A stretch of DNA of 64,000 bases. Source: an uncultured Cohaesibacter sp. (GTDB lineage: Bacteria; Pseudomonadota; Alphaproteobacteria; Rhizobiales; Cohaesibacteraceae). Shown here one piece after another: positions 1,416 through 43,900 of this stretch (the first letter of the stretch is position 1; every line of letters begins with the position of its first letter). The position numbers and the translations under genes are program-made. The stretch is from NCBI RefSeq assembly GCF_963666525.1, contig NZ_OY762905.1, forward strand, positions 1,842,001 through 1,906,000, in the 5' to 3' direction. The notes beneath the pieces were generated by a model. That model ran no database searches and was not told the origin of the DNA. It saw only the letters and a list, made by a program, of their open reading frames with translations.

Positions 1416-2582
1416 ATGCCCATTATCAATCGAATTGCCGAATTTCAGAACGAGATCCAGAAAGTTCGCCAGGACCTTCACCAATATCCGGAGCTGCAAT
1501 ATGACGTCCACAAGACAACAACCCGCGTCATTGCCGAACTGAAATCCTACGGCATCACCAACATCACGTCCGGTGTTGGCAAATCGGGCGTTGTCGCCGT
1601 CATTCAGGGCAAGAGCAACAAATCGGGCCGCACCATCGGCCTGCGCGCGGACATGGATGCCCTGCCGTTGCACGAAGCAACCGGCAAGCCCTATGCCTCC
1701 AAGGTAGAGGGCAAGATGCACGCCTGTGGCCATGACGGCCACACCTCCATGCTGCTCGCAGCCGCGAAATATCTGCAGGAAACCCGCAATTTCGATGGTG
1801 AAGTCGTTCTCATCTTCCAGCCGGCAGAGGAAGGTGGCGGCGGCGCCCGCGCCATGGTCGAGGACGGCCTGATGGATCGCTGGAACATCGAACAGGTCTA
1901 TGGCATGCACAACTGGCCAAACGTGCCACTGGGCGCGTTCCACACCCGTCCGGGATCCTTGATGGCATCAGCCGACCGCATTTACATCAATGTCGAAGGC
2001 AGTGGCGGCCATGCCGCCAAACCGCATGAGTGCATCGACACGGTGCTGGTGATCGCAGCCATCATTCAGGCCGTACAGTCCATCGCAAGCCGCAACGTCG
2101 ACCCGCAGGATTCCATCGTCATTTCGCTGTGCCACGTAGAAGCCGGCTTTACCGACAACGTGATCCCGCAAACCGGCCTCATCGAGGGCACGGTGCGCAC
2201 GCTCAATCCGGAAACCCGCAACATGGCCGAGAAGCGCCTCAGAGAAATCATCGAGGGTACGGCTGCCGTCTATGGTGCCAAGGCAACCCTTGACTACAAG
2301 CGAGACTACCCGGTGACCGTCAACCATCCTGCCCAGACGGAAATCGCAGTCAAGGTGGCCAAGTCCATCTCTGGCGCGGACAAGGTCGAGGACAATATCG
2401 TCGCCACCATGGGCGCAGAGGACTTCTCGTTCATGCTGCAGGAGCGCCCAGGTGCCTTCATCTTCATCGGCAACGGCGAATCGGCCCCACTGCATCATCC
2501 GGAGTATGATTTCAATGATGAGATCATTCCGATCGGTGCCTCCTACTGGGTCAAGCTTGTTGAAGAGCTGCTGCCCGCCTGA
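1416..2582 (+). CDS. M20 family amidohydrolase (hippurate hydrolase / N-acyl amino acid amidohydrolase type)
   Basis: A 388-residue cytoplasmic metallopeptidase of family M20D, which removes acyl groups from N-acylated amino acids or related amides. Metal-binding motifs are visible: GLRADMDALP near residue 80, HACGHDGHTSML near residue 103 and FQPAEEGGGGA near residue 135, followed by the inserted dimerisation domain and a C-terminal GAEDFSFML segment. The length is normal for HipO/AmaA-like enzymes. Substrate specificity cannot be read from the sequence. It is monocistronic and is followed at once by a strong terminator. Assignment to the family is firm; assignment to hippurate is not. Confidence 0.93.
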   Translation: MPIINRIAEFQNEIQKVRQDLHQYPELQYDVHKTTTRVIAELKSYGITNITSGVGKSGVVAVIQGKSNKSGRTIGLRADMDALPLHEATGKPYASKVEGKMHACGHDGHTSMLLAAAKYLQETRNFDGEVVLIFQPAEEGGGGARAMVEDGLMDRWNIEQVYGMHNWPNVPLGAFHTRPGSLMASADRIYINVEGSGGHAAKPHECIDTVLVIAAIIQAVQSIASRNVDPQDSIVISLCHVEAGFTDNVIPQTGLIEGTVRTLNPETRNMAEKRLREIIEGTAAVYGAKATLDYKRDYPVTVNHPAQTEIAVKVAKSISGADKVEDNIVATMGAEDFSFMLQERPGAFIFIGNGESAPLHHPEYDFNDEIIPIGASYWVKLVEELLPA

Positions 2583-2593
2583 TGACAGTCACA

Positions 2594-2628
2594 GGGAGCC
2601 AGGTTCAATGCCCGGCTCCCTTTTTTTT
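2594..2628 (+). terminator. Rho-independent terminator after the M20 amidohydrolase
   Basis: Inverted repeat GGGAGCC (2594-2600) and GGCTCCC (2614-2620) with a 13-base loop, followed directly by eight T residues. It ends transcription of the amidohydrolase, so the exporter gene downstream needs its own promoter. Confidence 0.9.
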
Positions 2629-2671
2629 CCCAAGCATAACCATGCGCTCTCAACAGACGAGACGATAGCCG

Positions 2672-3439
2672 TTGCTGGAAGCCCTGCCGCTGTTTGCCAA
2701 CACCCAGCTTGACGAGATCACCCTCTGGGGGCTGATCTTTGCCAGCTATTGCACATCGGCCTTCACGGCGGCCTTCGGCATCGGCGGCGGCGTGGCACTT
2801 CTGGCCATACTCGGCATGGTCATCCCCGTCACGACGCTCATTCCCCTGCACGGAACGGTGCAGATGGGGTCCAACGCCGGGCGCGCCTGGCATTTGCGCA
2901 CGCACATAAAATGGCGGCTGATCGGGTTGCTGCTCGTCGGTTCTGTCGTCGGAACCATCATCGGCTCGCAGATTGTCGTTGCCTTGCCCGATGCCGTGCT
3001 GAAAATCATTCTGGCCCTGTTCGTGTTGACCATCACATGGCTGCCAACCCCTCGGCTCGCCGCCAGAGGCGACAGCATCGTCACAGTCGGGGCGATGATA
3101 GCGGCAATTGCCAACATGTTTGTGGGCGCAACGGGGCCACTGGTTGCAGCCCTGATATCCAGCCGGGTTGCAGATCGCAAACAGGTCGTGGCCACGCATG
3201 CCACTGCAATGACCCTGTCGCACGGCCTGAAGATCATCGCCTTCGGCTTCATCGGCTTTGTCTATACCGACTGGCTGGGACTCATCGCTGCGATGATCCT
3301 GTCCGGCTATCTGGGCACTCTTACCGGCAGCAAGCTGTTGCACATCATGGATGAGGGGCTGTTTCGCAAGGCCTTTCGGGTCGTGATCACCGGCCTCGCC
3401 CTGCTCATGCTCGCTGGCGGTCTCAAGGGGCTTCTCTAG
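2672..3439 (+). CDS. TauE/SafE family sulfite/organic anion exporter
   Basis: A 255-residue polytopic membrane protein of the TauE/SafE (DUF81) family, whose members export sulfite, sulfoacetate or other small anions. The N-terminal half shows the typical glycine-rich FGIGGGVALLAILGM segment after the first helix, and the arrangement of about seven hydrophobic segments in two halves fits the family. The start is a TTG at 2672: an in-frame TAG at 2666 rules out anything further upstream and no ATG occurs in the first 45 codons. It converges with an ABC importer of nitrate/sulfonate type, so a link to sulfonate use is possible but not shown. Confidence 0.82.
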   Translation: MLEALPLFANTQLDEITLWGLIFASYCTSAFTAAFGIGGGVALLAILGMVIPVTTLIPLHGTVQMGSNAGRAWHLRTHIKWRLIGLLLVGSVVGTIIGSQIVVALPDAVLKIILALFVLTITWLPTPRLAARGDSIVTVGAMIAAIANMFVGATGPLVAALISSRVADRKQVVATHATAMTLSHGLKIIAFGFIGFVYTDWLGLIAAMILSGYLGTLTGSKLLHIMDEGLFRKAFRVVITGLALLMLAGGLKGLL

Positions 3440-4153
3440 AAGCGGAGAGCAATGCCTGCTCGATCCGATCGGCCAGTGCAAGACAGGTCGGGCCGGTGCG
3501 GTCTCCCCCCCATCGAAGCTGGCCACAATGCGGGCCGGGGCTTCCGACAATACCAGAACCCGGTCGGCCATCGCGGCTGCGTGTCGGGCATCGTGGGTCA
3601 CCATCAGGATGGCCATGCCCCGATCGGCGACACGGCAAAGCAACAGGGTTTGCATCTGCCTGACCAGCGCAACATCAAGACCATCAAACGGCTCGTCGAG
3701 CAGCAACAGGTCCGGCTCGATGACCAGCGCCCGCGCCAGCGATACCCGCTGCCGCATGCCGCCCGAGAGCTGATGGGGAAACTGCCGGTGACTGGCCCTC
3801 GGCAGACCCACGGCGTCCAACATCGCCTCTGCCCTTGCCACCCGTTCGCGCCCCGAGGCGAACTGCGCCTTGAGCGCGAAGGCAACATTGTCAAGCGCGC
3901 TGCGCCATGGCAACAGGCGCGGATCCTGAAACATCACGGACAATCGCTCGGCCCGACAGGCGAGCTGCCCCTCCACAGGATGAGTGTCTCCGAGCACCAG
4001 AGACAGCAGCGTTGTCTTGCCAACCCCGGAAGGCCCCATGAGGGCAACCACCTGTCCGCGCCGACAAGCAAGGTCGATGCCCGACAGCACCGTTTGGTCA
4101 CCATAGGCAAACCCAACACCGGAAAGCGCAAGCAGGACGTCATCCATTGCCAT
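3423..4153 (-). CDS. ABC transporter ATP-binding protein (nitrate/sulfonate/taurine type), apparent frameshift near the 3' end
   Basis: ATPase of an SsuB/TauB/NrtD-type importer. Walker A is GPSGVGKTTL, the signature is LSGGMRQRVSLARAL and Walker B is LLLLDEPFDGLD, followed by a switch His in MVTHD. The ATG at 4153 (or 4147) overlaps the permease stop, so translation is coupled. As written, the frame does not stop where the family ends but runs about 300 codons antisense through the TauE gene. A run of seven G on this strand (3505-3511) precedes the break: with one extra G the protein would continue as GGGDRTGPTCLALADRIEQA and stop at 3423, giving a normal 243 residues. I therefore annotate the restored gene. 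It may be a sequencing error, a real mutation or a phase-variable tract. Confidence 0.85.
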
Positions 4154-4952
4154 GCCCCTCCTCTTCACGCCGCCAGACATGCATCCGCTCGCGCACCAGC
4201 CGCAACAACAGCTGGTCCAGCACGATCAGGATTGCCACCACCACCACGACCCAGGCCAGCAGCTCGGCCGTATCGACCCGCGCCCGCGCGGCCGCGATCC
4301 CGTCGCCAATGCCACCGGAGCCGGAGAGCAGCTCGGCCATGATCGACACCTTCCACGACATCGCCAGCGTGGTCGCAAGGGCCGGATAGAGATAGCCCAG
4401 CATATGCGGTGCATAGACATCGAACAGCATCGCCCGGGGCGGAGCACGGAAGGCCCGCGCCATTCTGGCCAGATCACCGTCCAGGCTGCGCACGGCCTGC
4501 ACGGCGGCGGCGAAAACCATCGGTGCCGTGGCAACCGCCACCGTGAACACCACCGCCCACCGGCCTCCGAACCACAACAGCGCCAGCACCACCCAGGCAA
4601 TCGCCGGAACCCCCAGAAGAATGACCGCCACCGGCTGCAAAACAAAGCGCAGATCCCCAAACCGACCCGCGAGCCCACCGGCAACAACGCCAATCAGCAC
4701 GCTTAGGCACCAGCCCGTCAGCGCATTGAAGGCCGTGGCCTGAAGCGCATGAGCCACCTCGCCGCTTCCGATCAGCCGCTGCAGCGTGACAAAGGTTTCG
4801 CCAACACCGGGCAGAACAAGAGAGCCATAGGCCACATGGCCCGCCTGCCAGAGCACCAGCATCAGCCCGACCCCAACCACGAACAGCAGAATGCGACGCA
4901 TCCCCCTGCCCCCGTCGTCCCCTTGTGTTCTGCGCTGTTCGGCCTTGCTCAC
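4140..4952 (-). CDS. ABC transporter permease (nitrate/sulfonate/taurine type)
   Basis: A 270-residue inner-membrane permease with about six transmembrane segments and a BPD_transp_1 core; the EAA-like loop is near FRAPPRAMLFDVYAPHMLG. It would pair with the downstream ATPase and the upstream periplasmic binding protein as a three-gene operon on the minus strand. I prefer the GTG at 4952, one base after the stop of the binding-protein gene and preceded by GGGGGT; the longer open frame starting at 5009 would lie inside the upstream gene. A further ATG at residue 37 of that longer frame is an alternative. Substrate is unknown. Confidence 0.88.
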   Translation of the reverse strand: MSKAEQRRTQGDDGGRGMRRILLFVVGVGLMLVLWQAGHVAYGSLVLPGVGETFVTLQRLIGSGEVAHALQATAFNALTGWCLSVLIGVVAGGLAGRFGDLRFVLQPVAVILLGVPAIAWVVLALLWFGGRWAVVFTVAVATAPMVFAAAVQAVRSLDGDLARMARAFRAPPRAMLFDVYAPHMLGYLYPALATTLAMSWKVSIMAELLSGSGGIGDGIAAARARVDTAELLAWVVVVVAILIVLDQLLLRLVRERMHVWRREEEGHGNG

Positions 4953-4953
4953 G

Positions 4954-5967
4954 CTACCCCCAGTAAAAGTCTGAAGCCGGTTTCCGCCCGCCGACGATCC
5001 CCGGATCAAGGCTCATCAGATGCTCGAAATACAGCTCGATGTCAGCCTGCGCCTCTTTGGCCGACTGCACATCGAGATGCACGAAAGGCAGGGACTTGGC
5101 AATAACCGGCGCGGGCAACGGCAGCGACTGTGCAGCCAGCTTGCCAGCCTCGTCCCAGTTGGCCTTCGTCCATTGCCCAGCCTCCAGGCAGGCTTCATGC
5201 ACAGCCCGGACAACCTCCGGCTTTTCTTCCAGAAAGGCAGGATTGACCGCCAGCCCGACCTGCGGAATGCGCGGGCCTCGGCCGGTATGGGCACCATAGA
5301 CCTCGGTGATGTCGATCGCCCGATAAAGCGGCACACCAGCCTTCTTGGCGCGAAACAGGGCTGCCGTGGACGCAGGTTCATGCAACACCGCAACATCCCC
5401 TCGCCCGGCCAGATAGAGCGGCACGGCTTCCCCCGGCGAGCCGACATAGTCGAGCGTCACATCCTTGTCAGGATCCAGTCCAGACCATTTGAGCACCAGA
5501 CGAAACAGCAGGTCGGGCGCTTCGTTCTTGTTCGACAGCAACACCCGTTTGCCTGCCAGATCCTCGATCCGACGGATCCCCTCGTCTCGCGCCATCACAT
5601 AGAGCACACCCCATGTGACCACGTTGACCATGACGGTTCCCGCACCGCGATTGAAGAAGTTGGCCGCCGCGTAAGTGGACGTGGCAAACATCTTGAAGTC
5701 ACCGGATGCGATCCCGGCACGCATCTGGTCGGTGCTCTTCCAGACATCAAAGCGGACTTCCGGTGAGACTTTTAAAAGAGCCGGGGACGTCGCCGCACGG
5801 GCAAAGACTGCAGACGGAGAGGCTGGTATGCCCCACAGGACAAGGCCGCCATCGCTGGCCCGGGTCCTGGTGTCGCCAGACGCTCCAAAAGCACCAGCCA
5901 GCGCCACCCCGGCGCTCCACCTCAGCATGGCGCGACGATCCAGAGACCCACATGATGAATTCGACAT
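4954..5967 (-). CDS. ABC transporter substrate-binding protein (NMT1/SsuA-like)
   Basis: Periplasmic binding protein of 337 residues in the NMT1/THI5/SsuA superfamily, first gene of the importer operon. The N-terminus carries a Tat-like signal (DRRAMLRWSAGVALAGAFG). Typical segments follow: a GDFKMFATSTYAAA region, a DLAGKRVLLSN segment and the domain-2 segment YLAGRGDVAVLHEPAS. The ATG at 5967 is chosen because GGAAGGTGGGAAG precedes it; a frame reaching 6018 has a poorer start. Relatives bind nitrate, bicarbonate, taurine, alkanesulfonates or thiamine precursors, so the ligand is open. It is divergent from the hydrogenase operon across an AT-rich gap. Confidence 0.85.
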   Translation of the reverse strand: MSNSSCGSLDRRAMLRWSAGVALAGAFGASGDTRTRASDGGLVLWGIPASPSAVFARAATSPALLKVSPEVRFDVWKSTDQMRAGIASGDFKMFATSTYAAANFFNRGAGTVMVNVVTWGVLYVMARDEGIRRIEDLAGKRVLLSNKNEAPDLLFRLVLKWSGLDPDKDVTLDYVGSPGEAVPLYLAGRGDVAVLHEPASTAALFRAKKAGVPLYRAIDITEVYGAHTGRGPRIPQVGLAVNPAFLEEKPEVVRAVHEACLEAGQWTKANWDEAGKLAAQSLPLPAPVIAKSLPFVHLDVQSAKEAQADIELYFEHLMSLDPGIVGGRKPASDFYWG

Positions 5968-6515
5968 CTTCCCACCTTCCGATTGACAGCTGACAACTCC
6001 GTTGAACAACACCATCATTTTCCTGGCAGCTGAATATCTTTCGAGAAAATTTATAGAAACCGAGCCAAAAGGACCATATTCAACAAGTCAAACGGCGATT
6101 GATACTAAAGTCTTGATCCATCAACATTTCAAGCAGACAAACCCGTTTTCCGCCGTTCATTCCCGCGCCCGATCAGTTTTGAAGACCTCGCAACAGCCCC
6201 CTAACCTGTTTCAGTTCCATCATCTTTTGCAATCGCAGAAAACGGTCGCGAAATCAGGGCAGAATAATTCACGCAATGAAATAATCATCACGCATTTCCC
6301 GACAACGCGCACGTTATGTACCAGTTTGATTTGCCGCAAGATTTTTCCCCGATCCTGCCTGAACATGAGGAAAAACAACAACAGGCATTGTCCAAATGGG
6401 TGGATCTTAGAGGAAGGCTCCAAGTCAGTATCGGGACAATCTGAAGTCAAGCGACCCGCGACCTGAAACGGCGCCTTGCAGTTTACGTTGGTTTATTCAA
6501 GCGACGGGGGTCACT
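5968..6515. other. AT-rich intergenic region upstream of the hydrogenase operon
   Basis: About 550 bases noticeably richer in A+T than the flanking genes, between the divergent ABC importer and hydrogenase operons. It contains a 12-base near-palindrome TTGATCCATCAA around 6114-6125 and a 42-codon open frame (6316-6444). No intact regulatory gene, sigma-54 -24/-12 element or consensus FNR/FixK box was found. Confidence 0.6.
6316..6444 (+). CDS. Possible small ORF or gene remnant ahead of the hydrogenase operon
   Basis: A 42-codon frame beginning MYQFDLPQDF and ending LQVSIGTI. Its composition looks protein-like (acidic and Gln-rich helix, then a basic RGRLQ segment) and it lies 72 bases upstream of a gene encoding only the C-terminal part of a NuoF-like domain. 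It has no good ribosome-binding site. It could be a small protein, the front of a lost NuoE/NuoF-type subunit, or chance. I do not recognise it. Confidence 0.25.
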   Translation: MYQFDLPQDFSPILPEHEEKQQQALSKWVDLRGRLQVSIGTI

Positions 6516-8513
6516 GTGGCACAAGTGGTTTATGGCGTTTGGGATGGGGTTGTTCATGATGCAAGGCGCAATCTGCCTGGCAACGACACTCCTCTTGCCG
6601 CTCTCAGAAATTTTGACGAATTCGATGAAGGCAACGCCGTGCGGGCCTTCTTTGCCGACCGGGGATTCTTCGTCTTCGATGAAACGGTCAGTCTGGTTGA
6701 CGGCCTGTTTCACTATATGAGCAAGGCCGCCGAGCAATCCTGTGGAGCCTGCACTCCCTGTCGCATGGGAACGGTACTGATCCGTGACGCACTCGACAAG
6801 ATGCGCCGGGGCCTCGACACCCCGCTCGACTTCGACGATATCGAGATGCTTGGCGAGCAGATGAAGGAAACGTCCCTCTGTGGCCTGGGTCAGACCTGCT
6901 GTGTCGCCCTGCTGGAAGTCATCCGAAATTTCCGTGAGCAGATCGAGAAGGAGGTGGCAAGGCATTTGCCCATCCGGCCCCAGCACGGCATGGCCTACAT
7001 GACGGCTCCCTGCATCGAGGCCTGCCCGTCCAAGGTCAATGTGCCGCGCTATATCGACTATATCCGTGACGGCAAGCCGGAGAGTTCACTCGGCGTTCTG
7101 CTGCAGAAATACCCCATGGCCGCCACCTGTGGCCGGGTCTGCGTGCGCTATTGCGAACAGGCCTGTCGCCGCAAGTTCGTCGACGAGGCGGTAGGCATCA
7201 AGACCCTCAAGCGCTTTGTTGCCGATCAGCAGAAGGGCTCCCACGCCCTCAAGTTCACCCGCGAAATGATCCAGAAGCCCCTCGCCGACGGCATGAAGGT
7301 CGCGGTCATCGGTGCCGGACCTGCGGGCATTTCCTGCGCCTATCACCTGTTGCTGCACGGCTATCACGTCGATGTCTTCGAGAAGCAGGACAAGGCCGGC
7401 GGCATGGCCCAGATCGGCATCCCGAACTATCGCCTGCCCAAGGATACACTGGCGATGGAAACCGACATCATCGTCGACCTCGGCGGCCGCTTCCTGTTTG
7501 GCCAGCAGCTCGGCACCGACTTTACCATCGATGATCTGTTCAAGCGCGGCTACAAGGCCGTCTTCCTCGGGCTTGGCTGCCAGGAAGGCACGATGCTCGG
7601 CGTCCGCGATGAGGAGAAGGTCCGAGAGGGCTACTTCACTGGCATCGATTTCCTGCTCAAGGTCCATGACCATGTCGACGGCATCGAAACCTTCCAGCTG
7701 AAGGGAGACGTGGTGGTGGTCGGCGGCGGCAACGTTGCCATGGACTGCGTCCGCTCTGCGGTGCGCCTCGGGGCGACCAAGGCCCATCTCATCTATCGCC
7801 GTACCCGCGAGGCCATGCCCGCCGACACCGAAGAGGTGGAAGAGGCCGAGAAGGAAGACATCGACTTCCACACCCTATGCACCCCGATCCGGGTCATCTC
7901 CGAGAATGGCAGGATCACCGGTGTAGAGCTTGTCGAGATGGAAGAAACCGAGCCGGACGAAAGTGGCCGCCGCAGCGTCCGCCCGATCCATGGCACTGAA
8001 CACATCATGCCCTGCTCGACGGTCATTGCCGCCATCGGCCAACAGGTGGAAAATCAGGAAACCATCGCCGAGGAAGGCATCGACTTCAACAAGTGGAAAT
8101 GCGTGGAAGCGGACAAGTCCCTCACAACCTCCCGCCCCGGTGTCTTTGCCGGCGGAGACTGCGTCACCGGCCCATCGACCCTCATCTATGCCATGTCGGC
8201 AGGGCTCAAGGCGGCGCGCAGTATCGACGACTGGATCCAGTTCGGCACACCGCGCTTCTTCAAGCGCTCCCGCATGCGCGAGCTGATCAACGAAAACGCC
8301 TTCCTCGCCAACGACGCGGTAGAAACCCCGGTGCGCAACGGCTACCGGGTGCACAATCCGGCGCTCGACCCGGAATTGCGCAAGACAATGTTCGGAGAGG
8401 TGGAGCAGACAATCAGTCTGGCAGATGCCTACAAGGAGGCCCAACGCTGCATGCGCTGCTATCGCCTCTATTCCGTGATCACCAAGCATTCCATCCCCGA
8501 AGGAGCGGCCTGA
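6516..8513 (+). CDS. NuoF C-terminal domain fused to GltD-like FAD/NAD(P) oxidoreductase, hydrogenase partner
   Basis: A 665-residue two-part protein. Residues about 50-150 match the C-terminal iron-sulfur domain of NuoF/HydB (CGACTPCRMG at about 77-85, then CGLGQTCC near 125); the FMN/NADH-binding front of NuoF is absent. The rest is a glutamate synthase small-subunit-like flavoprotein: N-terminal cluster cysteines in CIEACPSKVNVPRY and CGRVCVRYCEQAC, FAD loop VAVIGAGPAGISCA, NAD(P) loop VVVVGGGNVAMDC and the C-terminal FAGGDCVTGPSTL. It ends three bases before hydA, so the two are surely co-expressed and probably form the electron-input/output module exchanging electrons between NAD(P)H and the hydrogenase. 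The GTG at 6516 follows GACGGGGG; a start further upstream is possible because the frame is open from 6411. Confidence 0.85.
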   Translation: MAQVVYGVWDGVVHDARRNLPGNDTPLAALRNFDEFDEGNAVRAFFADRGFFVFDETVSLVDGLFHYMSKAAEQSCGACTPCRMGTVLIRDALDKMRRGLDTPLDFDDIEMLGEQMKETSLCGLGQTCCVALLEVIRNFREQIEKEVARHLPIRPQHGMAYMTAPCIEACPSKVNVPRYIDYIRDGKPESSLGVLLQKYPMAATCGRVCVRYCEQACRRKFVDEAVGIKTLKRFVADQQKGSHALKFTREMIQKPLADGMKVAVIGAGPAGISCAYHLLLHGYHVDVFEKQDKAGGMAQIGIPNYRLPKDTLAMETDIIVDLGGRFLFGQQLGTDFTIDDLFKRGYKAVFLGLGCQEGTMLGVRDEEKVREGYFTGIDFLLKVHDHVDGIETFQLKGDVVVVGGGNVAMDCVRSAVRLGATKAHLIYRRTREAMPADTEEVEEAEKEDIDFHTLCTPIRVISENGRITGVELVEMEETEPDESGRRSVRPIHGTEHIMPCSTVIAAIGQQVENQETIAEEGIDFNKWKCVEADKSLTTSRPGVFAGGDCVTGPSTLIYAMSAGLKAARSIDDWIQFGTPRFFKRSRMRELINENAFLANDAVETPVRNGYRVHNPALDPELRKTMFGEVEQTISLADAYKEAQRCMRCYRLYSVITKHSIPEGAA

Positions 8514-8516
8514 GCC

Positions 8517-10376
8517 ATGTGCACCATTGAGCCTATCAGCCACGCCGGACGCGACCCTGCCGAGGCAACCATCAAGCTCCAGATCAACAACAAAACATGC
8601 ATGGCCTTTCCCAACGAGACCATCCTGTCCTGTGCCCGTCGCCATGACATCTACATTCCGACCCTGTGCGAGCTTGATGACATCGACCACACCCCGGGCA
8701 CCTGCCGTGTCTGTCTGGTCGAGATCAATCATCCGGGCCACGACGGAGCCCAGATCGTAACCTCTTGCGACACGCCTGTTCGCGAAGGAATGACGGTCGA
8801 GACCCGGAGCAAGAGGGCACGCAACATGCAGCGGCTACAGGTCGAGCTGCTGATGGCCGACCATCTGCAGGACTGCGCCACCTGCATCCGCCACGGCGAT
8901 TGCGAACTGCAGGATGTGGCCCAATATGTCGGCCTCAAGGAAAACCGCTTCTTTGACCGGACACTGGCAGAAAGCCGACCGGTGGATGAGGCCGCGACCG
9001 CCATGGTCCGCGACATGCGCCGCTGCATCCGCTGCCAGCGCTGCGTCGCCATCTGCCGCTATCATCAGGGCATCGATGCCCTCGTCATCGAAGGCACAGG
9101 CAACAACCGCGTTGTCGCTCTGCGCGATGGCCATGACCCGCTGAGCAACATCTGTGTGTCCTGCGGACAATGCGTTCTGGTCTGCCCGACCGGCGCACTC
9201 GGCGAGCGGGATGAAACCGACCGGGCGCTGGATTACATTTGCGATCCGGACATCATCACCGTGGTCCAGTTCGCTCCCGCCGTGCGCGTGGCCTTCGGCG
9301 AGGAATTCGGCATGCCCGCCGGCACCAATGTCGAGGGCCATGTGATCGCCGCCTGCCGCAAGATCGGCGTCGACATTGTGCTCGACACCAATTTCGCCGC
9401 CGATGTGGTGATCATGGAGGAGGGCACCGAGCTGCTCGGACGCCTCAGAGACGGGCGCAGACCGACCTTCACCTCCTGCTGCCCGGCTTGGATCAATTTT
9501 GCCGAAACCCACTATCCCGATATCCTGCCGCTTCTATCCTCGACCAAATCACCCCAGCAGGTGCTCTCGACGATTGCCAAGACCTACCTGCCGGAGAAAC
9601 AGGATATCGCGGCAGACCGCATTCGCGTCATCTCTATCATGCCATGCATCGCCAAGAAGGATGAGGCAGCCCGACCCCAGCTGACAACGCTCGGAGAGCG
9701 GGATACGGATGTGGTGCTCACCACACGGGAGTTCGCCCGTCTGCTCAGGCGCGAGGGGATCGATCTCAAGACCATCAAGCCATCAAGCTTCGACAATCCC
9801 TACATGAGCGAATATTCCGGTGCTGCAGCCATTTTCGGCACCACCGGCGGCGTCATGGAGGCCGCCGTGCGCACCATCTATGCGGTGGTCAACGGCAAGG
9901 AACTCGACAAGATCGAGCTGACCCAGCTGCGCGGTTTCGAGGGCATCCGCGAAGCGACGGTCGATCTGGGTGGACCGATCGGTGAAGTGAAGGTAGCCAT
10001 GGTTCATGGCCTTGGCGACACGCGCAAGCTGGTCGAGATGATCCGGTCGGGAGAAGCGGACTATGACTTCATCGAGGTCATGGCCTGCCCCGGTGGCTGC
10101 GTCGATGGCGGCGGCTCGCTACGCTCCAAGAAGGCCTATCTGCCTCTTGCCAAGGCAAGGCGAGAGACAATCTACAATGTGGACCGCAAGACCAGCGTGC
10201 GCCAATCTCACAAGAATGCTCAGGTTCAGGCCCTCTATCGGGATTTCCTCGAAGCGCCCAATTCGGAGAAGGCCCATCATCTGCTGCACACCCATTATGA
10301 GGATCGCCGTCGCGAGCTCAAGCACACGGTCAAGGAGATCTGGGACAGCCTGTCGATGAGCTCCGTACTCTACTAG
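8517..10376 (+). CDS. hydA: [FeFe]-hydrogenase catalytic subunit
   Basis: A 619-residue group A [FeFe]-hydrogenase reducing protons or oxidising H2. In order: an N-terminal 2Fe-2S domain (CELDDIDHTPGTCRVC), a His-Cys 4Fe-4S site (HLQDCATCIRHGDC), two 4Fe-4S clusters (CIRCQRCVAIC and CVSCGQCVLVC), then the H-domain with all three signatures: TSCCPAW (C321, C322), MPCIAKK (C377) and EVMACPGGCVDGGG (C524, C528). The proton-relay cysteine C321 and the methionines of motifs 2 and 3 are present, so this looks catalytically competent. A small-subunit-like tail ends the protein. Association with a GltD-type partner recalls the glutamate-synthase-linked group (A2) of published classifications. The maturases HydE, HydF and HydG are not in the window. 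Confidence 0.96.
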   Translation: MCTIEPISHAGRDPAEATIKLQINNKTCMAFPNETILSCARRHDIYIPTLCELDDIDHTPGTCRVCLVEINHPGHDGAQIVTSCDTPVREGMTVETRSKRARNMQRLQVELLMADHLQDCATCIRHGDCELQDVAQYVGLKENRFFDRTLAESRPVDEAATAMVRDMRRCIRCQRCVAICRYHQGIDALVIEGTGNNRVVALRDGHDPLSNICVSCGQCVLVCPTGALGERDETDRALDYICDPDIITVVQFAPAVRVAFGEEFGMPAGTNVEGHVIAACRKIGVDIVLDTNFAADVVIMEEGTELLGRLRDGRRPTFTSCCPAWINFAETHYPDILPLLSSTKSPQQVLSTIAKTYLPEKQDIAADRIRVISIMPCIAKKDEAARPQLTTLGERDTDVVLTTREFARLLRREGIDLKTIKPSSFDNPYMSEYSGAAAIFGTTGGVMEAAVRTIYAVVNGKELDKIELTQLRGFEGIREATVDLGGPIGEVKVAMVHGLGDTRKLVEMIRSGEADYDFIEVMACPGGCVDGGGSLRSKKAYLPLAKARRETIYNVDRKTSVRQSHKNAQVQALYRDFLEAPNSEKAHHLLHTHYEDRRRELKHTVKEIWDSLSMSSVLY

Positions 10377-12428: not shown

Positions 12429-12728
12429 GTCTCCCCCTCATCCCCAAGGCAGGATGGAGGGCAAAACCCGTCTTCGTCAAGATCGAACCGCAGTCAGCGG
12501 AACACCTGACGCGACGCTACGGCATCTTGTCAACATTGCAGCTTCGCCCAACGCAAAGACCGTTTCCCTGGAATGAATAAAATGTTAATCTCTACCCTAA
12601 GTTTCGGATAATAATATATAAAACTAAACAATTAGAACTCGTCCAGAACAATTCGACGCAGTTCCATTCATTGTCCGGGCACGACAGAACGGTTCCAACC
12701 GCTTTCATTCCTTGGGGGAGGATTGACC
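12429..12728. other. Divergent promoter region of the signalling island
   Basis: Three hundred bases between the histidine-kinase-like gene on the minus strand and the CheB-CheR kinase on the plus strand. The right half is AT-rich (ATAATATATAAAACTAAAC around 12608-12626). No clear -35/-10 pair or operator was identified. Confidence 0.45.
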
Positions 12729-15700
12729 ATGAGTAAGGATGCTGAACGCTCAGGCGCCTCTCCAACGGGAGCAGCAAAACCGTCCAGGTCCCGGCGGGTG
12801 GCAAAGCGCACCGGCAAGCCTTCCGCCAAGGCGTCGCAACCAAAGGGGCGAAAGCCTGACAGATCAACGGCCACAGCAGCACAAAAGATCGCAGAGACAT
12901 CTGTCCGCATAGTAGCCATTGGCGCATCAGCAGGTGGCCTTGAGCCCATCGAGCAACTGTTTGAAGCAATGCCGACGCCCCCCGGTCTGGCCTTCGTCAT
13001 CGTCCAGCATCTTTCCCCCAACTTCCAGTCGATGATGGACCAGCTGATCGCGCGCCATACAAAAATGCGCATCGTCCATGCCGAAGACCAGATGTTCATC
13101 GAACCCAATGTCATCTATCTCAACCCGCCCCGCACGGAGCTGTCGATAAAGGATGGACGGCTGAAGGCGACCGCCTATCCGGACAACGACATGTTGAGCC
13201 TGCCGATTGATGCCTTTTTCTCTTCGCTGGCCCATGAGGAGGGCGAACAGGCCATCGGGATCGTTCTGTCCGGCACCGGCTCGGACGGCACCCGTGGCAG
13301 CCTGCAGATCATCCAGCATGGTGGCGTCGTCATTGCACAGGACCCGGCAACCGCCAAATTCGATTCCATGCCGCGCAAGGTCATTGAAACGATCGCCTCT
13401 GCCTTCTCGGCAAAGGTGTCCGATATGCCGGACATTCTCAAGGCGATCATCACCGGCACCAGCATGCCGCTGCAGGAAAAGGATATCGTCGAGGAGAGCG
13501 ACCCCGAAGCCCGTATTCTGACCATTCTGCAAAAGGCATACGGCACCGATTTTACCCAATACAAACAGGCCACCATCCACCGCCGGATCCAGCGACGAGC
13601 CCTGCTCAAACGCCTCTCAAGCCTTGACGACTATTGCGATGCTCTTCGCCTCGACAAGGAAGAGATGGATACGCTCTATTGCGATCTGCTAATCGGCGTG
13701 ACCGAATTCTTCCGCGACAAGGGCGCGTTCGAGAGTCTCAAGACCCGGGTGCTGCCCGACCTCGTCGGAATGATGGCCCCGGACCGGCAACTCAGGCTCT
13801 GGGTGCCCGGTTGCGCCACGGGTGAGGAACCCTATTCGATCGCAATCCTCATTTGTGAGCTGGCAAAGGAAATGGGCATTGCCCCCAATCTGAAGATATT
13901 TGCAACGGACATCCATTTCCGCTCACTGGAGTTCGCAGCCAACGGGAGCTATAGCGCCGAAAGCGTCAGCCAGATTCCGGAAACGAGTCTGGCCACCTAT
14001 TTCGAGATCTCGGACGGTCGCTACAAGGTCAGAAAGAGTCTCAGAAGGCACGTCGTCTTTTCAACGCAAAACCTGCTCAAGGACCCTCCCTTCACCAAGA
14101 TCGACATCATCTCCTGTCGCAATCTTCTGATCTATTTCAACGATCAGGCGCAGCGCAAGGTCCTCTCGCTGTTCCATTTCTCCCTGCGAAAGAACGGCTA
14201 TCTGTTTCTCGGGTCAAGCGAGACGGTAGGCAATCTTGACATGGAATTCAGTACTCTGGACAAGCGCTGGCGGATCTTCCAGAAGAAGCGCAACACGCGC
14301 CTGCATGAGCAGTCCTTTCTGCTGCCGACCGCTACCAGCGTCCAGGACGATGCCGCAGACGGGCTGTCCCTCAGGGACACTCGATCCCATAGCCTTGAAG
14401 CAACGCGGAAGGAACGCCTCGCCCGGCAGGCGCTTTATGGCGCCTACGACCGGCTTCTGGAACGCTATGCGCCAACGGGCTTCCTGATCAGCGAACAGGG
14501 CGAACTTGTCCATGTATTCGGACATGCCGAGAAATTCCTTCATGTTCGCAAGGGCCTGTTCAGCAACCGCCTTTCTGACATGGTTGTCAAGGACCTGAGG
14601 CTGGTGATCAACGCAGGGATTGAACGCGCCCTGTCCATCGGCCATGAGGTGGAGTTCGAACGGGCCGTACAGATTGAAGGCCTCAGTGGCCACAAGATCC
14701 GCCTGACCGTCCGTATTTCCAAGATCATGGATATCGCAATCCGTAGCACCTTCCTGCTCATCATCCTCGAAGAACGAGAAGAGAGATTTCCGGATCAGGA
14801 AATCATGTCCTACATCTCGCCAGCCCCCGAAGCCGACATGGTCTATGCCCAGCGGATCCGTGAGCTGGAAAACGAGTTGAAATCCACCGAGGAAAGCCTC
14901 CAGACAACCATCGAGGAGCTGGAAACCAGCAACGAGGAACTCCAGGCCACCAACGAGGAACTGACCGCCTCCAACGAAGAGCTTCAGAGCACCAACGAGG
15001 AACTCCATTCGGTCAACGAGGAGCTCTATACCGTCAGCGCCGAGCATCAACGCAAGATCGTTGAATTGACCGAGCTGACCGACGACATGGAAAACCTGCT
15101 GCTCAGCACCGAAATCGGCACGATCTTCGTCGACAAGGCGGCACGGATCAGGCGCTTCACTCCAGCCTCGACCAAAGCCTTCAATCTGGTCCCCCATGAT
15201 ATTGGTCGCCCGATCAGCCACGTCACCTGCCGCTTCAATGGCGAAGGCTTTTACGATGACATTCTGGACACGATCAAGAACGGCAGACAGCGCAGTCTCG
15301 AAGTGGAGTGCGACGGCGTAGCCCATCTCATCACCGTGCTCCCCTACAGGACAGAGCAGGAGCAGGTCAGTGGTGCGGTGATCACCATTTTCGAGATCAA
15401 CGACCTCAAACGAGCAAAGGAGCAAGCAAACAAGGAGCGGGAATTCTACAAGGCGGTCGTTGATTTGCAGAGCGACCTGGTCTGCCGTTTCAAGCCCGAC
15501 TATGCCATCACCTTCGCCAACACCGCTTTCATGTCCTTCTTCAACATCGAGCCGGGAACGATCACCCGGACCTTCTTTCATGACCTGTTCGTTGGCTCCC
15601 AGAGGGAAGACCTTTTGCAGGCCATCAGGGAACTTGAGAAGCAAGGCAAGACCGAATGGAACTGTGAGCTGCCCGGCAGCACCAACAGGTGGCTTTTGTG

Positions 15701-17387
15701 CCAGTTCAGTCTGGTCAGAGACGAAGCGGACCATACGGTCGAAATACAGACCGTCATTCACAACGTGACCGAGAGCGTTGAACGCGAAAAGATGATGGTC
15801 GACTTCAACCACATCGCCGCTGACAGCAGCCTTGATCTCGATGACAAGATCAGGCTCATCCTGAAGCGCGTGTCCGAGGTCTCCCATCTTCCTGCTGCCC
15901 TAAAGTTGAGCTTTTCGAACCAGCAGTTCATCGTCAAGCAGATGATCGGACTTGACGACACCGACATTGCCCTGCGTCAGGCCTTCGGCACGCCTTGCAC
16001 CGAATGCGGCAATCTGCTCGGCGAGGGTGCGGTGATGTCCTGTAGCGGAAACCTGATGGACTGTGTCAAGGACAACGCGCAGATCCTCAGGACCTATGGC
16101 TATGTATCGATCATCGGCTCACCGATCATCAGCAACAATGCCACCATCGGAGCGATCATGTTTGCCTCCAGATATCCGGTCAGCAAGTTTCATCTGGAAA
16201 CCTACCAGCCCATCATCGACAGGATTTCCGACTGGATCGGCTATGAACTGTTTCGCAGGGATCAGCAGGAAAAGCTCGAGCTGCTCAACAATCTGTTCAT
16301 GGAGGAGGAAGAACGCTTCCGCAAGCTCTACATGGAGACCCCGGTCATCATGCACTCCCTCGACAAGGACGGCACCATCGTTGAGGCCAATCAGAAGTGG
16401 CTGACCTCGCTTGGCTACGAGCGCGAGGAAGTCATCGGCCATCACTGGGAAGAATTCATGACCGAAGCGTCAACCCGCTACGCCTATGAGGTCGTCATCC
16501 CCGAGGCGACCAGAAACAAGCAGGCTGACAACATCCTGTTCCAGATGCGCAAGAAGAACGGTGATGTCATAGATGTCGAAATGTCCACCGTCATTGTTGC
16601 CGACAACAAGGGCATCGAGCAGACGCGCACCGTTCTGGTCGATGTATCCGGCAGGATAAGGGCGGAAAAGGAGCTGGAGGCCCACAATCAGGAACTGAAG
16701 ATCATCAACGACAATCTCAACCAGTTCACCCATATCATCAGCCATGATCTGGCCGGCCCCTTGCGGGCCATTCAGCACACGGCGACATGGATCGAGGAAG
16801 ATCTGGAGGCCAGCGCCAAGGACGAGATTCAGGAGCATATCGATCGGCTGAAATTCCAGATATCGCATCTTGGCAGCCTGATATCGGATCTCTCCGACTA
16901 TTCCAAGGCCGGATCCAATCTGCAGGAGGCCGAAGAGCTCGATCTGGCAACCAGCCTCAGGAACATGTTCGCAATCATCGACAAAAACCGGGATATCTCG
17001 ATGGAGGTGGATCTGCTGGTCGACACCATCCATACCTTCCGGGCGCCCCTGATGCTGGTGTTCCGCAATCTGGTCGAAAACGCGATCAAATACCACGACA
17101 AGGATCATGGCACCGTCCGGATCACTCAGGAGGATCTCGGAAAGACATGGCGCTTTGCGGTGATCGACGACGGCCCCGGAATTGACCCGCGACATCACAG
17201 CAAGATCCTGCTGCCGTTCAGAAAGCTGGAACGCAAGGACAAGATCCCCGGCAACGGCATGGGGCTGGCGCTGGTCAAGAAGGCAATCGAATCCCTCGGC
17301 GGCACCTTCACCATCATCTCTGACCCGGCAAGGCAGCCCGGCACCACCTTCCGCTTCACCTGGCCAAAGAAATCGGCGGTTAGCTGA
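12729..17387 (+). CDS. CheB-CheR-PAS-GAF-PAS sensor histidine kinase
   Basis: A giant 1552-residue soluble signalling protein. Order: a basic Ser/Lys-rich tail (1-55); CheB methylesterase (about 58-235) with Ser in GASAGGLE, His in QHLSPNFQS and Asp in LSGTGSDGTRG; CheR methyltransferase (about 255-510) with TEFFRDKGAF, VPGCATGEEPYSIA and CRNLLIYF; a linker; a coiled coil (708-773) built from repeating NEELQ-type heptads; PAS (about 785-890) and PAS (about 900-1010); GAF (about 1020-1175); PAS (about 1195-1310); HisKA with H in ISHDLAGPLRAI near 1339; and HATPase with NLVENAIKYHD, IDDGPGID and GNGMGLALV. The kinase core looks active. The ATG at 12729 follows GGGGGAGG; a TTG six bases upstream is less likely. 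It is probably the driver kinase of this island, with the nearby REC proteins as partners. Confidence 0.9.
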   Translation: MSKDAERSGASPTGAAKPSRSRRVAKRTGKPSAKASQPKGRKPDRSTATAAQKIAETSVRIVAIGASAGGLEPIEQLFEAMPTPPGLAFVIVQHLSPNFQSMMDQLIARHTKMRIVHAEDQMFIEPNVIYLNPPRTELSIKDGRLKATAYPDNDMLSLPIDAFFSSLAHEEGEQAIGIVLSGTGSDGTRGSLQIIQHGGVVIAQDPATAKFDSMPRKVIETIASAFSAKVSDMPDILKAIITGTSMPLQEKDIVEESDPEARILTILQKAYGTDFTQYKQATIHRRIQRRALLKRLSSLDDYCDALRLDKEEMDTLYCDLLIGVTEFFRDKGAFESLKTRVLPDLVGMMAPDRQLRLWVPGCATGEEPYSIAILICELAKEMGIAPNLKIFATDIHFRSLEFAANGSYSAESVSQIPETSLATYFEISDGRYKVRKSLRRHVVFSTQNLLKDPPFTKIDIISCRNLLIYFNDQAQRKVLSLFHFSLRKNGYLFLGSSETVGNLDMEFSTLDKRWRIFQKKRNTRLHEQSFLLPTATSVQDDAADGLSLRDTRSHSLEATRKERLARQALYGAYDRLLERYAPTGFLISEQGELVHVFGHAEKFLHVRKGLFSNRLSDMVVKDLRLVINAGIERALSIGHEVEFERAVQIEGLSGHKIRLTVRISKIMDIAIRSTFLLIILEEREERFPDQEIMSYISPAPEADMVYAQRIRELENELKSTEESLQTTIEELETSNEELQATNEELTASNEELQSTNEELHSVNEELYTVSAEHQRKIVELTELTDDMENLLLSTEIGTIFVDKAARIRRFTPASTKAFNLVPHDIGRPISHVTCRFNGEGFYDDILDTIKNGRQRSLEVECDGVAHLITVLPYRTEQEQVSGAVITIFEINDLKRAKEQANKEREFYKAVVDLQSDLVCRFKPDYAITFANTAFMSFFNIEPGTITRTFFHDLFVGSQREDLLQAIRELEKQGKTEWNCELPGSTNRWLLCQFSLVRDEADHTVEIQTVIHNVTESVEREKMMVDFNHIAADSSLDLDDKIRLILKRVSEVSHLPAALKLSFSNQQFIVKQMIGLDDTDIALRQAFGTPCTECGNLLGEGAVMSCSGNLMDCVKDNAQILRTYGYVSIIGSPIISNNATIGAIMFASRYPVSKFHLETYQPIIDRISDWIGYELFRRDQQEKLELLNNLFMEEEERFRKLYMETPVIMHSLDKDGTIVEANQKWLTSLGYEREEVIGHHWEEFMTEASTRYAYEVVIPEATRNKQADNILFQMRKKNGDVIDVEMSTVIVADNKGIEQTRTVLVDVSGRIRAEKELEAHNQELKIINDNLNQFTHIISHDLAGPLRAIQHTATWIEEDLEASAKDEIQEHIDRLKFQISHLGSLISDLSDYSKAGSNLQEAEELDLATSLRNMFAIIDKNRDISMEVDLLVDTIHTFRAPLMLVFRNLVENAIKYHDKDHGTVRITQEDLGKTWRFAVIDDGPGIDPRHHSKILLPFRKLERKDKIPGNGMGLALVKKAIESLGGTFTIISDPARQPGTTFRFTWPKKSAVS

Positions 17388-42499: not shown

Positions 42500-43900
42500 A
42501 TGAGCAATAAAATGTGGGGCGGCCGCTTCTCCGAAGGACCGGACGCCATTATGGAAGAAATCAATGCTTCCATCGGTTTCGACCAAAAACTCTATTCCCA
42601 GGACATTGCCGGATCCAAGGCGCATGTGCGCATGCTCGCCGCCCAGGGCATTGTTGCTGCTGATGATGCCAAAGCCATCGAGGATGGTCTAGACACAATC
42701 AAGGGAGAAATTGAGGCGGGCAGCTTCACTTTTTCGCGTGCGCTGGAAGACATTCATATGAATGTGGAAAGCCGCCTTGCCGATCTCATCGGCCCGAAGG
42801 CCGGTCGCCTGCACACGGCCCGTTCGCGCAATGACCAGGTGGCCACCGATTTCCGCCTCTGGGTGCGCGACACCCTCGACACCCTCGACGTCCAGCTTCT
42901 CGAACTGCAGCTTGCCTTTGTCGCCAAGGCAGACGAGTTCGCCAGTGCCGTCATGCCCGGCTTTACCCATTTGCAGAGTGCCCAGCCGGTTACCTTCGGC
43001 CACCACATGATGGCCTATGTGGAAATGCTTGCACGCGACCGTGGCCGGGTTCAGGATGCCCGCCAGCGCATGAATGAATGCCCGCTCGGCTCTGCCGCCC
43101 TTGCGGGCACCTCCTTCCCGATCGATCGTCACATGACCGCCAAGGCGCTCGGCTTCGACCGCCCGACCGCCAACTCGCTCGATGGCGTCTCCGACCGCGA
43201 CTTCGCGCTGGAAGCCCTTTCGTCGGCCTCCATCTGCGCCATGCACCTGTCCCGCTTTGCCGAAGAGCTGGTCATCTGGTCTTCGGCCCAGTTCCGCTTC
43301 GTCAAGCTTTCGGACAAATTCTCCACCGGCTCCTCGATCATGCCGCAGAAGCGCAACCCCGATGCCGCCGAGCTGGTGCGCGCCAAGTCCGGCCGCATCA
43401 TCGGCGACCTCAATGCCCTGCTGATCGTCATGAAGGGTCTGCCGCTGGCCTATTCCAAGGACATGCAGGAAGACAAGGAGCAGGTGTTTGACGCCCTGCA
43501 GAACCTGTCGCTGTGCATCGCGGCCATGACCGGCATGGTCAAGGACCTCGAGCCGAACCTCAAGGAACTGAAGAAGGCCGCAGGCTCGGGCTACTCCACC
43601 GCCACCGATCTGGCAGACTGGCTCGTTCGCACTCTGGGCATGCCGTTCCGCAACGCCCACCATGTCACCGGCAGCCTCGTCGCCATGGCCGCAGAACGAA
43701 GCATTGAGCTGCACAAGCTAAGCCTTGAGGACATGCAGACGGTCGAGCCGACCATCACAGAGGATGTCTTCTCGGTTCTGTCGGTCGACAAATCGGTCCG
43801 CAGCCGCACCTGTTATGGCGGCACGGCACCTGCCAATGTCAAAAAACAGGCAAAGAGCTGGCTGAAAAAGCTTGAAAAAGAAAAAGCAGCCAAGCAATAG
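42500..43900 (+). CDS. argH: Argininosuccinate lyase
   Basis: A 466-residue fumarase/aspartase-superfamily enzyme splitting argininosuccinate into arginine and fumarate. N-terminus [13 protein letters not shown], substrate loop [35 protein letters not shown] and the family signature [12 protein letters not shown] with the catalytic Ser. The ATG at 42500 is the only one fitting the family; the frame is open to 42164 but that part lies over tlpA and its promoter. It is the first gene of an argH-lptM-lysA set. Confidence 0.97.

Follow-up and report, generated by a model that had tools for sequence, protein, structure and literature searches.

A complete-looking [FeFe]-hydrogenase apparently maintained without HydE, HydF and HydG in Cohaesibacter and other Alphaproteobacteria

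The window analysed here is a stretch of 64,000 nucleotides from a Cohaesibacter genome that forms a single contig of 5,175,666 bases and is 99.98% complete. Two adjacent genes on its forward strand are the subject of this work. The first (6516..8513) codes for a fusion protein of 665 residues in which the C-terminal 4Fe-4S domain of NuoF is joined to a GltD-like oxidoreductase that uses flavin adenine dinucleotide (FAD) and nicotinamide adenine dinucleotide (phosphate) [NAD(P)]. The second, hydA (8517..10376), codes for the 619-residue HydA, an M3-type group A [FeFe]-hydrogenase catalytic subunit with conserved H-cluster and proton-path residues. Both open reading frames (ORFs) lie where an earlier reading of the letters (hereafter, the original prediction) had placed them, and the host is an alphaproteobacterium as predicted, its genus, Cohaesibacter, following from the nearest named relatives. 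The nearest named HydA loci are those of Cohaesibacter haloalkalitolerans (97%) and C. marisflavi (92%). The locus appears to hold a complete-looking [FeFe]-hydrogenase that is maintained without the known assembly machinery.

HydA matches the family model TIGR02512 ("FeFe hydrogenase, group A") with 518 bits, the cut-off being 405.95, and NF040763 with 718 bits, under a cut-off of 765. Its domains are Fer2_4, NADH-G_4Fe-4S_3, Fer4, Fe_hyd_lg_C (298 bits) and the small-subunit domain, and the motifs L1 (TSCCPAW), L2 (MPCxxKKxE) and L3 (MACPGGC) are all present. By TIGR02512 and L1-L3, its sequence is that of a group A [FeFe]-hydrogenase. The cluster cysteines C322, C377, C524 and C528, together with C321, align with those of Clostridium pasteurianum CpI and are invariant in a 14-sequence alignment. 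The L1 pair, C321 and C322 (9477..9482, forward strand), corresponds to CpI C299 and C300, which we take to be the proton relay and a cluster ligand, respectively. Retention of the H-cluster residues and of the relay cysteine, as originally predicted, is thus borne out by the alignment with CpI.

The fusion protein contains the Pfam families NADH_4Fe-4S (PF10589, residues 66-145), Fer4_20 (163-240) and Pyr_redox_2 (260-563), and no family of the flavin mononucleotide (FMN) domain was reported in it at E ≤ 0.001. This agrees with the predicted partner of HydA, namely the C-terminal Fe-S domain of NuoF, lacking the FMN domain and joined to a GltD-like protein. The NuoF tail (6711..6950, forward strand) has cysteines at residues 76, 79, 82 and 122; these are invariant in 38 rows, and so are the six cysteines of the Fer4_20 part and a C-terminal CxxC. 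The GTG start of the gene is plausible, since homologues as distant as 74% identity can be aligned with the protein from its first residue.

The di-iron part of the H-cluster is considered to depend on HydE, HydF and HydG for its synthesis. The genome was searched with the models for HydF (TIGR03918), HydG (TIGR03955) and HydE (TIGR03956) at their cut-offs, which each let through one of 14 control genomes, and none of the three was found over cut-off in this single contig. The best matches reach 78 bits for HydF (GTPase part alone), 30 bits for HydG and 42 bits for HydE, and a second HydG match has 25 bits. The HydE matches and the best HydG match sit in two adjacent ORFs of an F420 operon that are presumably CofG and CofH, names given from sequence and gene order without a family scan. 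That operon, probably one for F420 biosynthesis (L031, 8199-13300), also shows CofD-, CofC- and CofE-like ORFs, again named by reading the ORFs. Absence of the maturases had been named in the original prediction as what would speak against it. What had not been foreseen is that this absence turns the locus into one with an intact, selected HydA and no HydEFG.

The same pattern recurs in many genomes. HydG was over cut-off in none of 22 near genomes, 14 of which bear HydA, and in 19 of the 49 genomes searched among those of the named loci (50 of the 69 loci had been submitted). Of the resulting 63 HydA-bearing genomes (49 plus the 14 near ones, own genome included), 21 have HydE and 23 have HydF over cut-off; at least one maturase was present in 23, and none of the three in 40. 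Four of these 40 are duplicates (G101, G102, G108 and G113 repeat G006, G009, G015 and G078), leaving 36 unique maturase-less genomes, of which six are single-contig (G000, G002, G003, G011, G012, G014). They include Cohaesibacter, Rhodovulum (five named species and strain PH10), two Rhodopseudomonas, four Tropicimonas, four Rhodoplanes, Rhodobium, a Xanthobacteraceae strain and several metagenome-assembled genomes (MAGs). Two of these MAGs are not strong evidence, because G121 has a partial HydG-like match of 176 bits and G144 has a sister sequence from a maturase-bearing genome. Neither the window nor the 26 loci searched from the maturase-less groups, L057 with its untested genome among them, showed any similarity to a maturase at E ≤ 0.01.

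Eight of the 23 maturase-bearing genomes contain just one Fe_hyd_lg_C match. In ten (G122-G126, G128, G134, G138, G145 and G147), HydF is located on the same contig as this type of HydA and no more than 10 kb away, with a second HydA in between in four of them, so the type is most simply read as ancestrally matured. The MAGs G123, G124 and G137 (loci L081, L082 and L096) have HydF and HydE without HydG over cut-off, the HydE of G137 being below cut-off; they may be incomplete or may use a HydG-less maturation. A lyase gene (L079:3463-4932) recurs in nine maturase-bearing hyd loci (also L081, L082, L083, L084, L087, L093, L097 and L118); it is 28% identical to an argininosuccinate-lyase-type protein at window positions 42905-43507 and absent from the 26 maturase-less-group loci searched.

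Some genomes carry further H-domain proteins. For instance, an uncultured Tropicimonas in which no maturase exceeds its cut-off contains another H-domain match of full length (G109:C13:2222-3067, 272 bits). In the own genome, which lacks HydEFG, another locus (L002:1267-3105, near 3,445,451-3,446,128 of contig C1) codes for an H-domain protein with a signalling domain of methyl-accepting chemotaxis proteins, two Fer4 domains, an Fe_hyd_lg_C match of 110 bits and an FeS domain, like the chemotactic group C2 of HydDB. It retains the cluster cysteines, has the relay cysteine substituted (QPCPA), and was found in this genome alone among the 22 near genomes searched.

A phylogenetic tree of HydA was built from 67 rows, namely 56 of the 69 named loci, ten further Cohaesibacter rows and the window. 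The maturase-less sequences form at least two clades: clade I with 28 rows (support 100/100; 27 tested, the genome of L057 untested) and clade II with seven rows (100/99), while two single MAG rows, L095 and L109, fall outside both. The 36 maturase-less rows require four changes on well-supported branches, and forcing clades I and II together, with L095 and L109 excluded, is rejected (p-AU 0.0024, approximately unbiased test). Within clade I, although some inner forks are open, the Rhodopseudomonas copies cluster with those of Rhodovulum/Rhodobacter (100/97). This grouping suggests that the cassette was transferred between orders after the maturases had gone, and a cassette that moves among genomes lacking HydEFG is what would be expected if it works without them. 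Cysteines at HydA residues 28, 242 and 280 are typical of clade I (28, 27 and 26 of the 28 rows), and the 23 maturase-bearing rows have no cysteine at positions 28 and 242. Changes common to both maturase-less clades are few: two weak ones, K169R and V237A, passed the filter.

The pocket of the di-iron site was compared between clades I and II taken together (35 rows, 34 of them tested as maturase-less, L057 aside) and 23 maturase-bearing rows, using a list of pocket residues and CpI roles which we take as given and CpI numbering by alignment. C299, the four cluster cysteines, E279, E282, S319, S323, P324, Q325, M353, K358, F417, G418 and M497 are the same in 35 of 35 rows, so that cluster and relay cysteines are identical throughout both clades. 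R286 is histidine in one clade II row, T297 is serine in six of the seven clade II rows, and a few other, less central sites vary; the pocket residues are nearly identical between these rows and the maturase-bearing ones. By parsimony, 15 of the 16 non-ligand pocket sites show zero changes (hypergeometric p = 0.00016, with 141 of the 285 H-domain columns unchanged), where the average H-domain column changed 1.6 times in clade I and 0.5 times in clade II, over summed tree lengths of 3.16 and 1.00 substitutions per site. The ratio of nonsynonymous to synonymous substitution rates (dN/dS) of hydA in Cohaesibacter is 0.021-0.061 (six pairs) and that of the fusion gene 0.021-0.035 (four pairs), while the maturase-bearing Pleomorphomonas hydA gives 0.048-0.091 (three pairs), with dS near 1 in some of the pairs used. 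Selection on hydA is therefore no laxer in Cohaesibacter than in maturase-bearing Pleomorphomonas. Such conservation shows constraint on the pocket, not its chemistry.

The pairing of both genes extends well beyond this strain. As the original prediction had proposed checking in relatives, the fusion gene adjoins hydA in every one of the 14 HydA-bearing near genomes, which puts the pairing beyond chance. HydA was found in 13 of the 18 Cohaesibacter genomes searched and in G078, which is Rhodobium orientis (L066/G113, with identical coordinates). Of the 69 named loci, 68 have GltD-type sequence of the fusion immediately upstream of hydA, and 62 show its NuoF tail. The seven loci without the tail are L069 (nothing available upstream), five at a contig end, and L106, where a GltD fragment alone was seen despite 10 kb of flank. 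The pairing is widespread in Alphaproteobacteria and Desulfobacterota and reaches Collinsella, in which the same NuoF-tail/GltD architecture lies beside HydA at 32% identity.

The gene pair represents a variation on the "glutamate synthase-linked" type already described. It shares with HydDB group A2 a group A HydA beside a GltD-type protein, and the likeness drawn in the original prediction is a fair one. It differs in that the partner is upstream and carries PF10589, and in that the genome lacks HydEFG (the HydDB classifier was not run): the A2 rule, in the passages of PMC5037454 that define it, places a GltD-type protein immediately downstream, without NuoF, and the class is listed there as having an "Undetermined role". 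Among solved structures, the nearest HydA sequence is that of the bifurcating HydABC (A3; NCBIfam group A6; 8a6t, 7q4v), which has the NuoF C-terminal Fe-S domain in common, but a full NuoF with FMN is not adjacent here and NF040763 stays below cut-off. The GltD-like FAD/NAD(P) domain with Fer4_20 feeding an Fe-S chain is shared with StnABC/NfnABC (8oh5, 9bov, 9n5u), and among the matches listed the GltD-like part of the model is nearest in fold to Nfn/Stn, the NuoF-tail part being barely covered. StnC differs in joining GltD to a NuoG-like part and in working with the FMN-bearing StnB, as described in the relevant sections of PMC10482914. Neither an FMN-bearing NuoF-like protein nor an NfnA-type flavoprotein was found here in the fusion or in ten neighbouring ORFs (E ≤ 1e-6).

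From this anatomy we infer that the two proteins would make up a soluble NAD(P)H-H2 oxidoreductase. The FAD of the GltD-like domain would be reduced by NAD(P)H, and electrons would travel via the GltD-type 4Fe-4S clusters and then the 4Fe-4S cluster of the NuoF tail to the N-terminal 2Fe-2S/4Fe-4S chain of HydA and the H-cluster site, or in reverse. NADPH is the more likely donor, because of the YRRTR motif of the fusion, a YRR-type motif that we take to mean NADPH preference, and because of the StnC precedent. At the H site, an H-cluster made without HydEFG would reduce protons or oxidise H2; alternatively, the pocket could hold another cofactor.

Since HydEFG is missing and the di-iron pocket is strictly selected, we propose that a route independent of HydEFG builds the H-cluster, or a close equivalent, in an NAD(P)H-H2 complex. 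This reading is tentative, held with a confidence that stops just short of the halfway mark, and retention of the proton path is what inclines us to it. Several points weigh against it. We know of no accepted chemistry that supplies the carbon monoxide and cyanide ligands in H-cluster assembly without HydG. The other known source of cyanide is HypF, which makes it for [NiFe] enzymes. Of 34 maturase-less genomes (G121 and G144 not included), 22 have HypF over cut-off, the own genome among them with 761 bits, and 12 do not, including the single-contig G011 and G014; one of the 12, G136, has a partial match of 216 bits. A Hyp-based supply was therefore rejected as the common answer. No gene replacing HydEFG was found, no genome-wide co-occurrence screen having been made. 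Moreover, those 141 H-domain columns, half of the total, are as constant as the pocket, whose strict conservation could serve another cofactor in the same place. A wider version of the proposal, in which a HydEFG-independent route or a new H-cluster-like di-iron centre occurs in many Alphaproteobacteria, the mobile cassette is active and a neighbouring importer may supply a substrate or cofactor precursor, is possible and somewhat more doubtful.

The strongest alternative is that the enzyme has been repurposed, the site holding a [4Fe-4S] cluster without the di-iron site, or another metal or ligand, so that the complex would be an NAD(P)H-linked reductase or a redox sensor acting on a substrate other than protons. 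We consider this rather unlikely, while several observations lend it weight: the missing ligand chemistry speaks for another cofactor in the pocket, HypF is missing along with HydEFG in those 12 genomes and with it any known source of carbon monoxide or cyanide, the hosts presumably include aerobic or phototrophic genera, and an importer often lies beside the pair. Against it, L1-L3 and the proton path are retained here, whereas the HylA and Nar-like paralogues lack L1-L3, according to the portion of PMC6085437 that deals with them. It is improbable that HydA is vestigial or inert, kept as no more than a structural partner of the fusion protein. Its patchy distribution in the genus (13 of 18 genomes) would fit such a fate; a dN/dS of 0.02-0.06 does not, nor does the complete constancy of the relay cysteine and of the lysine and methionines of the pocket.

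Less probable still is an ordinary hydrogenase whose maturases were missed, either because a plasmid that carries them was not assembled or because their sequences have diverged very far. Assemblies can lose replicons, and MAGs or drafts make up part of the 36 unique genomes. However, all three maturases fall below cut-off in every one of the 40 genomes, the six single-contig ones included, with models that detect at least one in 23 others; the best HydE and HydG matches of the own genome are the CofG/CofH-like pair; and only nine of 72,556 plasmid records match HydA at E ≤ 1e-100, all with less than 60% identity. The least credible reading, that of an electron-bifurcating hydrogenase using the GltD-type FAD as in NfnB, has in its favour the fold of the GltD-like domain and against it the missing FMN domain, the lack of a second flavin subunit in the ten neighbouring ORFs and the loss of bifurcation by the GltD domain of StnC, as reported in part of PMC10482914. 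The original prediction had spoken of "no flavin site for bifurcation"; this stands for the FMN domain and goes too far for the FAD, since the sections of PMC10482914 on these enzymes have a GltD-type FAD bifurcating in NfnB, though not in StnC.

Hydrogenases of organisms without HydEFG have reportedly been set aside as inactive or left open. In the present case, cultured bacteria (Cohaesibacter, Rhodovulum, Rhodopseudomonas, Tropicimonas and Rhodoplanes) keep the pocket nearly unchanged without HydEFG over more than four substitutions per site of summed tree length. Either there is a second way to the cofactor, or this pocket, the most demanding active site of H2 metabolism, can be kept by selection for another job. 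A hydA gene without maturases is also described, in the parts of PMC4967309 and PMC9161772 concerned, for Rhodospirillum rubrum and some anaerobic eukaryotes; the difference is that here many genomes and at least two clades are involved, the GltD partner is fused, and pocket conservation and selection were measured. Titles and abstracts of the open-licence PMC literature yielded no paper on [FeFe]-hydrogenase maturation in Cohaesibacter, Rhodovulum or Rhodoplanes (the last not being a search term), and no report of these clades, the selection signal or the importer tie was found in that literature, which does not prove absence.

The importer in question is an ATP-binding cassette (ABC) importer of the NMT1/SsuA type, coded on the reverse strand of the window. 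It comprises a binding protein with a twin-arginine motif near its N-terminus (4954..6018; assigned by Pfam and neighbour conservation, below cut-off for the SsuA family), a permease (4140..5009; BPD_transp_1, a conserved neighbour) and an ORF with an ABC ATPase domain near the N-terminus (2543..4180; ABC_tran, residues 32-165), which is conserved in most clade I loci. All-against-all blastp clustering had indicated no shared neighbours, a result overturned by the targeted search that revealed the importer. All 18 clade I loci with long flanks have it next to the pair, each with binding protein and permease, the best ATPase match of L059 lying elsewhere. Its position and orientation vary: in Cohaesibacter, Rhodobium and L065 it lies upstream and is transcribed divergently from the pair; in Rhodovulum, Rhodopseudomonas, L057 and three Tropicimonas it follows downstream in the same direction; in the fourth Tropicimonas (L098) it precedes the pair, again in the same direction. 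Adjacency kept despite changed orientation argues for a functional tie of the importer with the pair. The twin-arginine motif occurs in all 25 binding-protein N-termini inspected, their start codons being approximate.

The importer is also found at nine Pleomorphomonas-type loci, at two of the seven clade II loci, at L095, at L246 and among the hyd genes of L081 and L082, where it sits between hydE and the lyase gene. As it accompanies maturase-bearing loci too, it is not simply a maturase substitute, and was rejected as one by itself. Four Desulfobacterota loci show weak importer matches, and in Collinsella a binding protein and an ABC gene follow hydA. No binding protein was found within the flanks, some of them short, of 35 of the 69 named loci, including five of the seven clade II loci, Roseiarcus, the Rhizomicrobium group and Mailhella. 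Four other [FeFe] loci were viewed: two of bifurcating type have no importer next to hydA, and two fdhF-linked ones from Cetobacterium have an ABC importer of some type two genes on, so that a nearby importer is not exclusive to the fusion-hydA type.

Upstream of the fusion gene, a box of the form TTGA-N6-GCAA (TTGATTTGCCGCAA, 6326..6339, forward strand) begins 190 bases before the start codon and resembles what we take to be the FNR/FixK consensus, a motif not drawn from a tool library. A similar box stands at like positions in eight of 12 other Cohaesibacter upstream regions of 400 bp, which are related and not independent, against 0.36 expected from mononucleotide shuffles of these regions. 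Among the loci scanned, it occurs in five of 14 in clade I (three of them Cohaesibacter), one of five in clade II and one of 20 others. As a predicted element, the box fits low-oxygen expression in part of clade I. Further along the window, positions 12723-17387 code for a 1554-residue CheB-CheR-PAS-histidine kinase hybrid, and related ORFs are present at six clade I loci, the window included.

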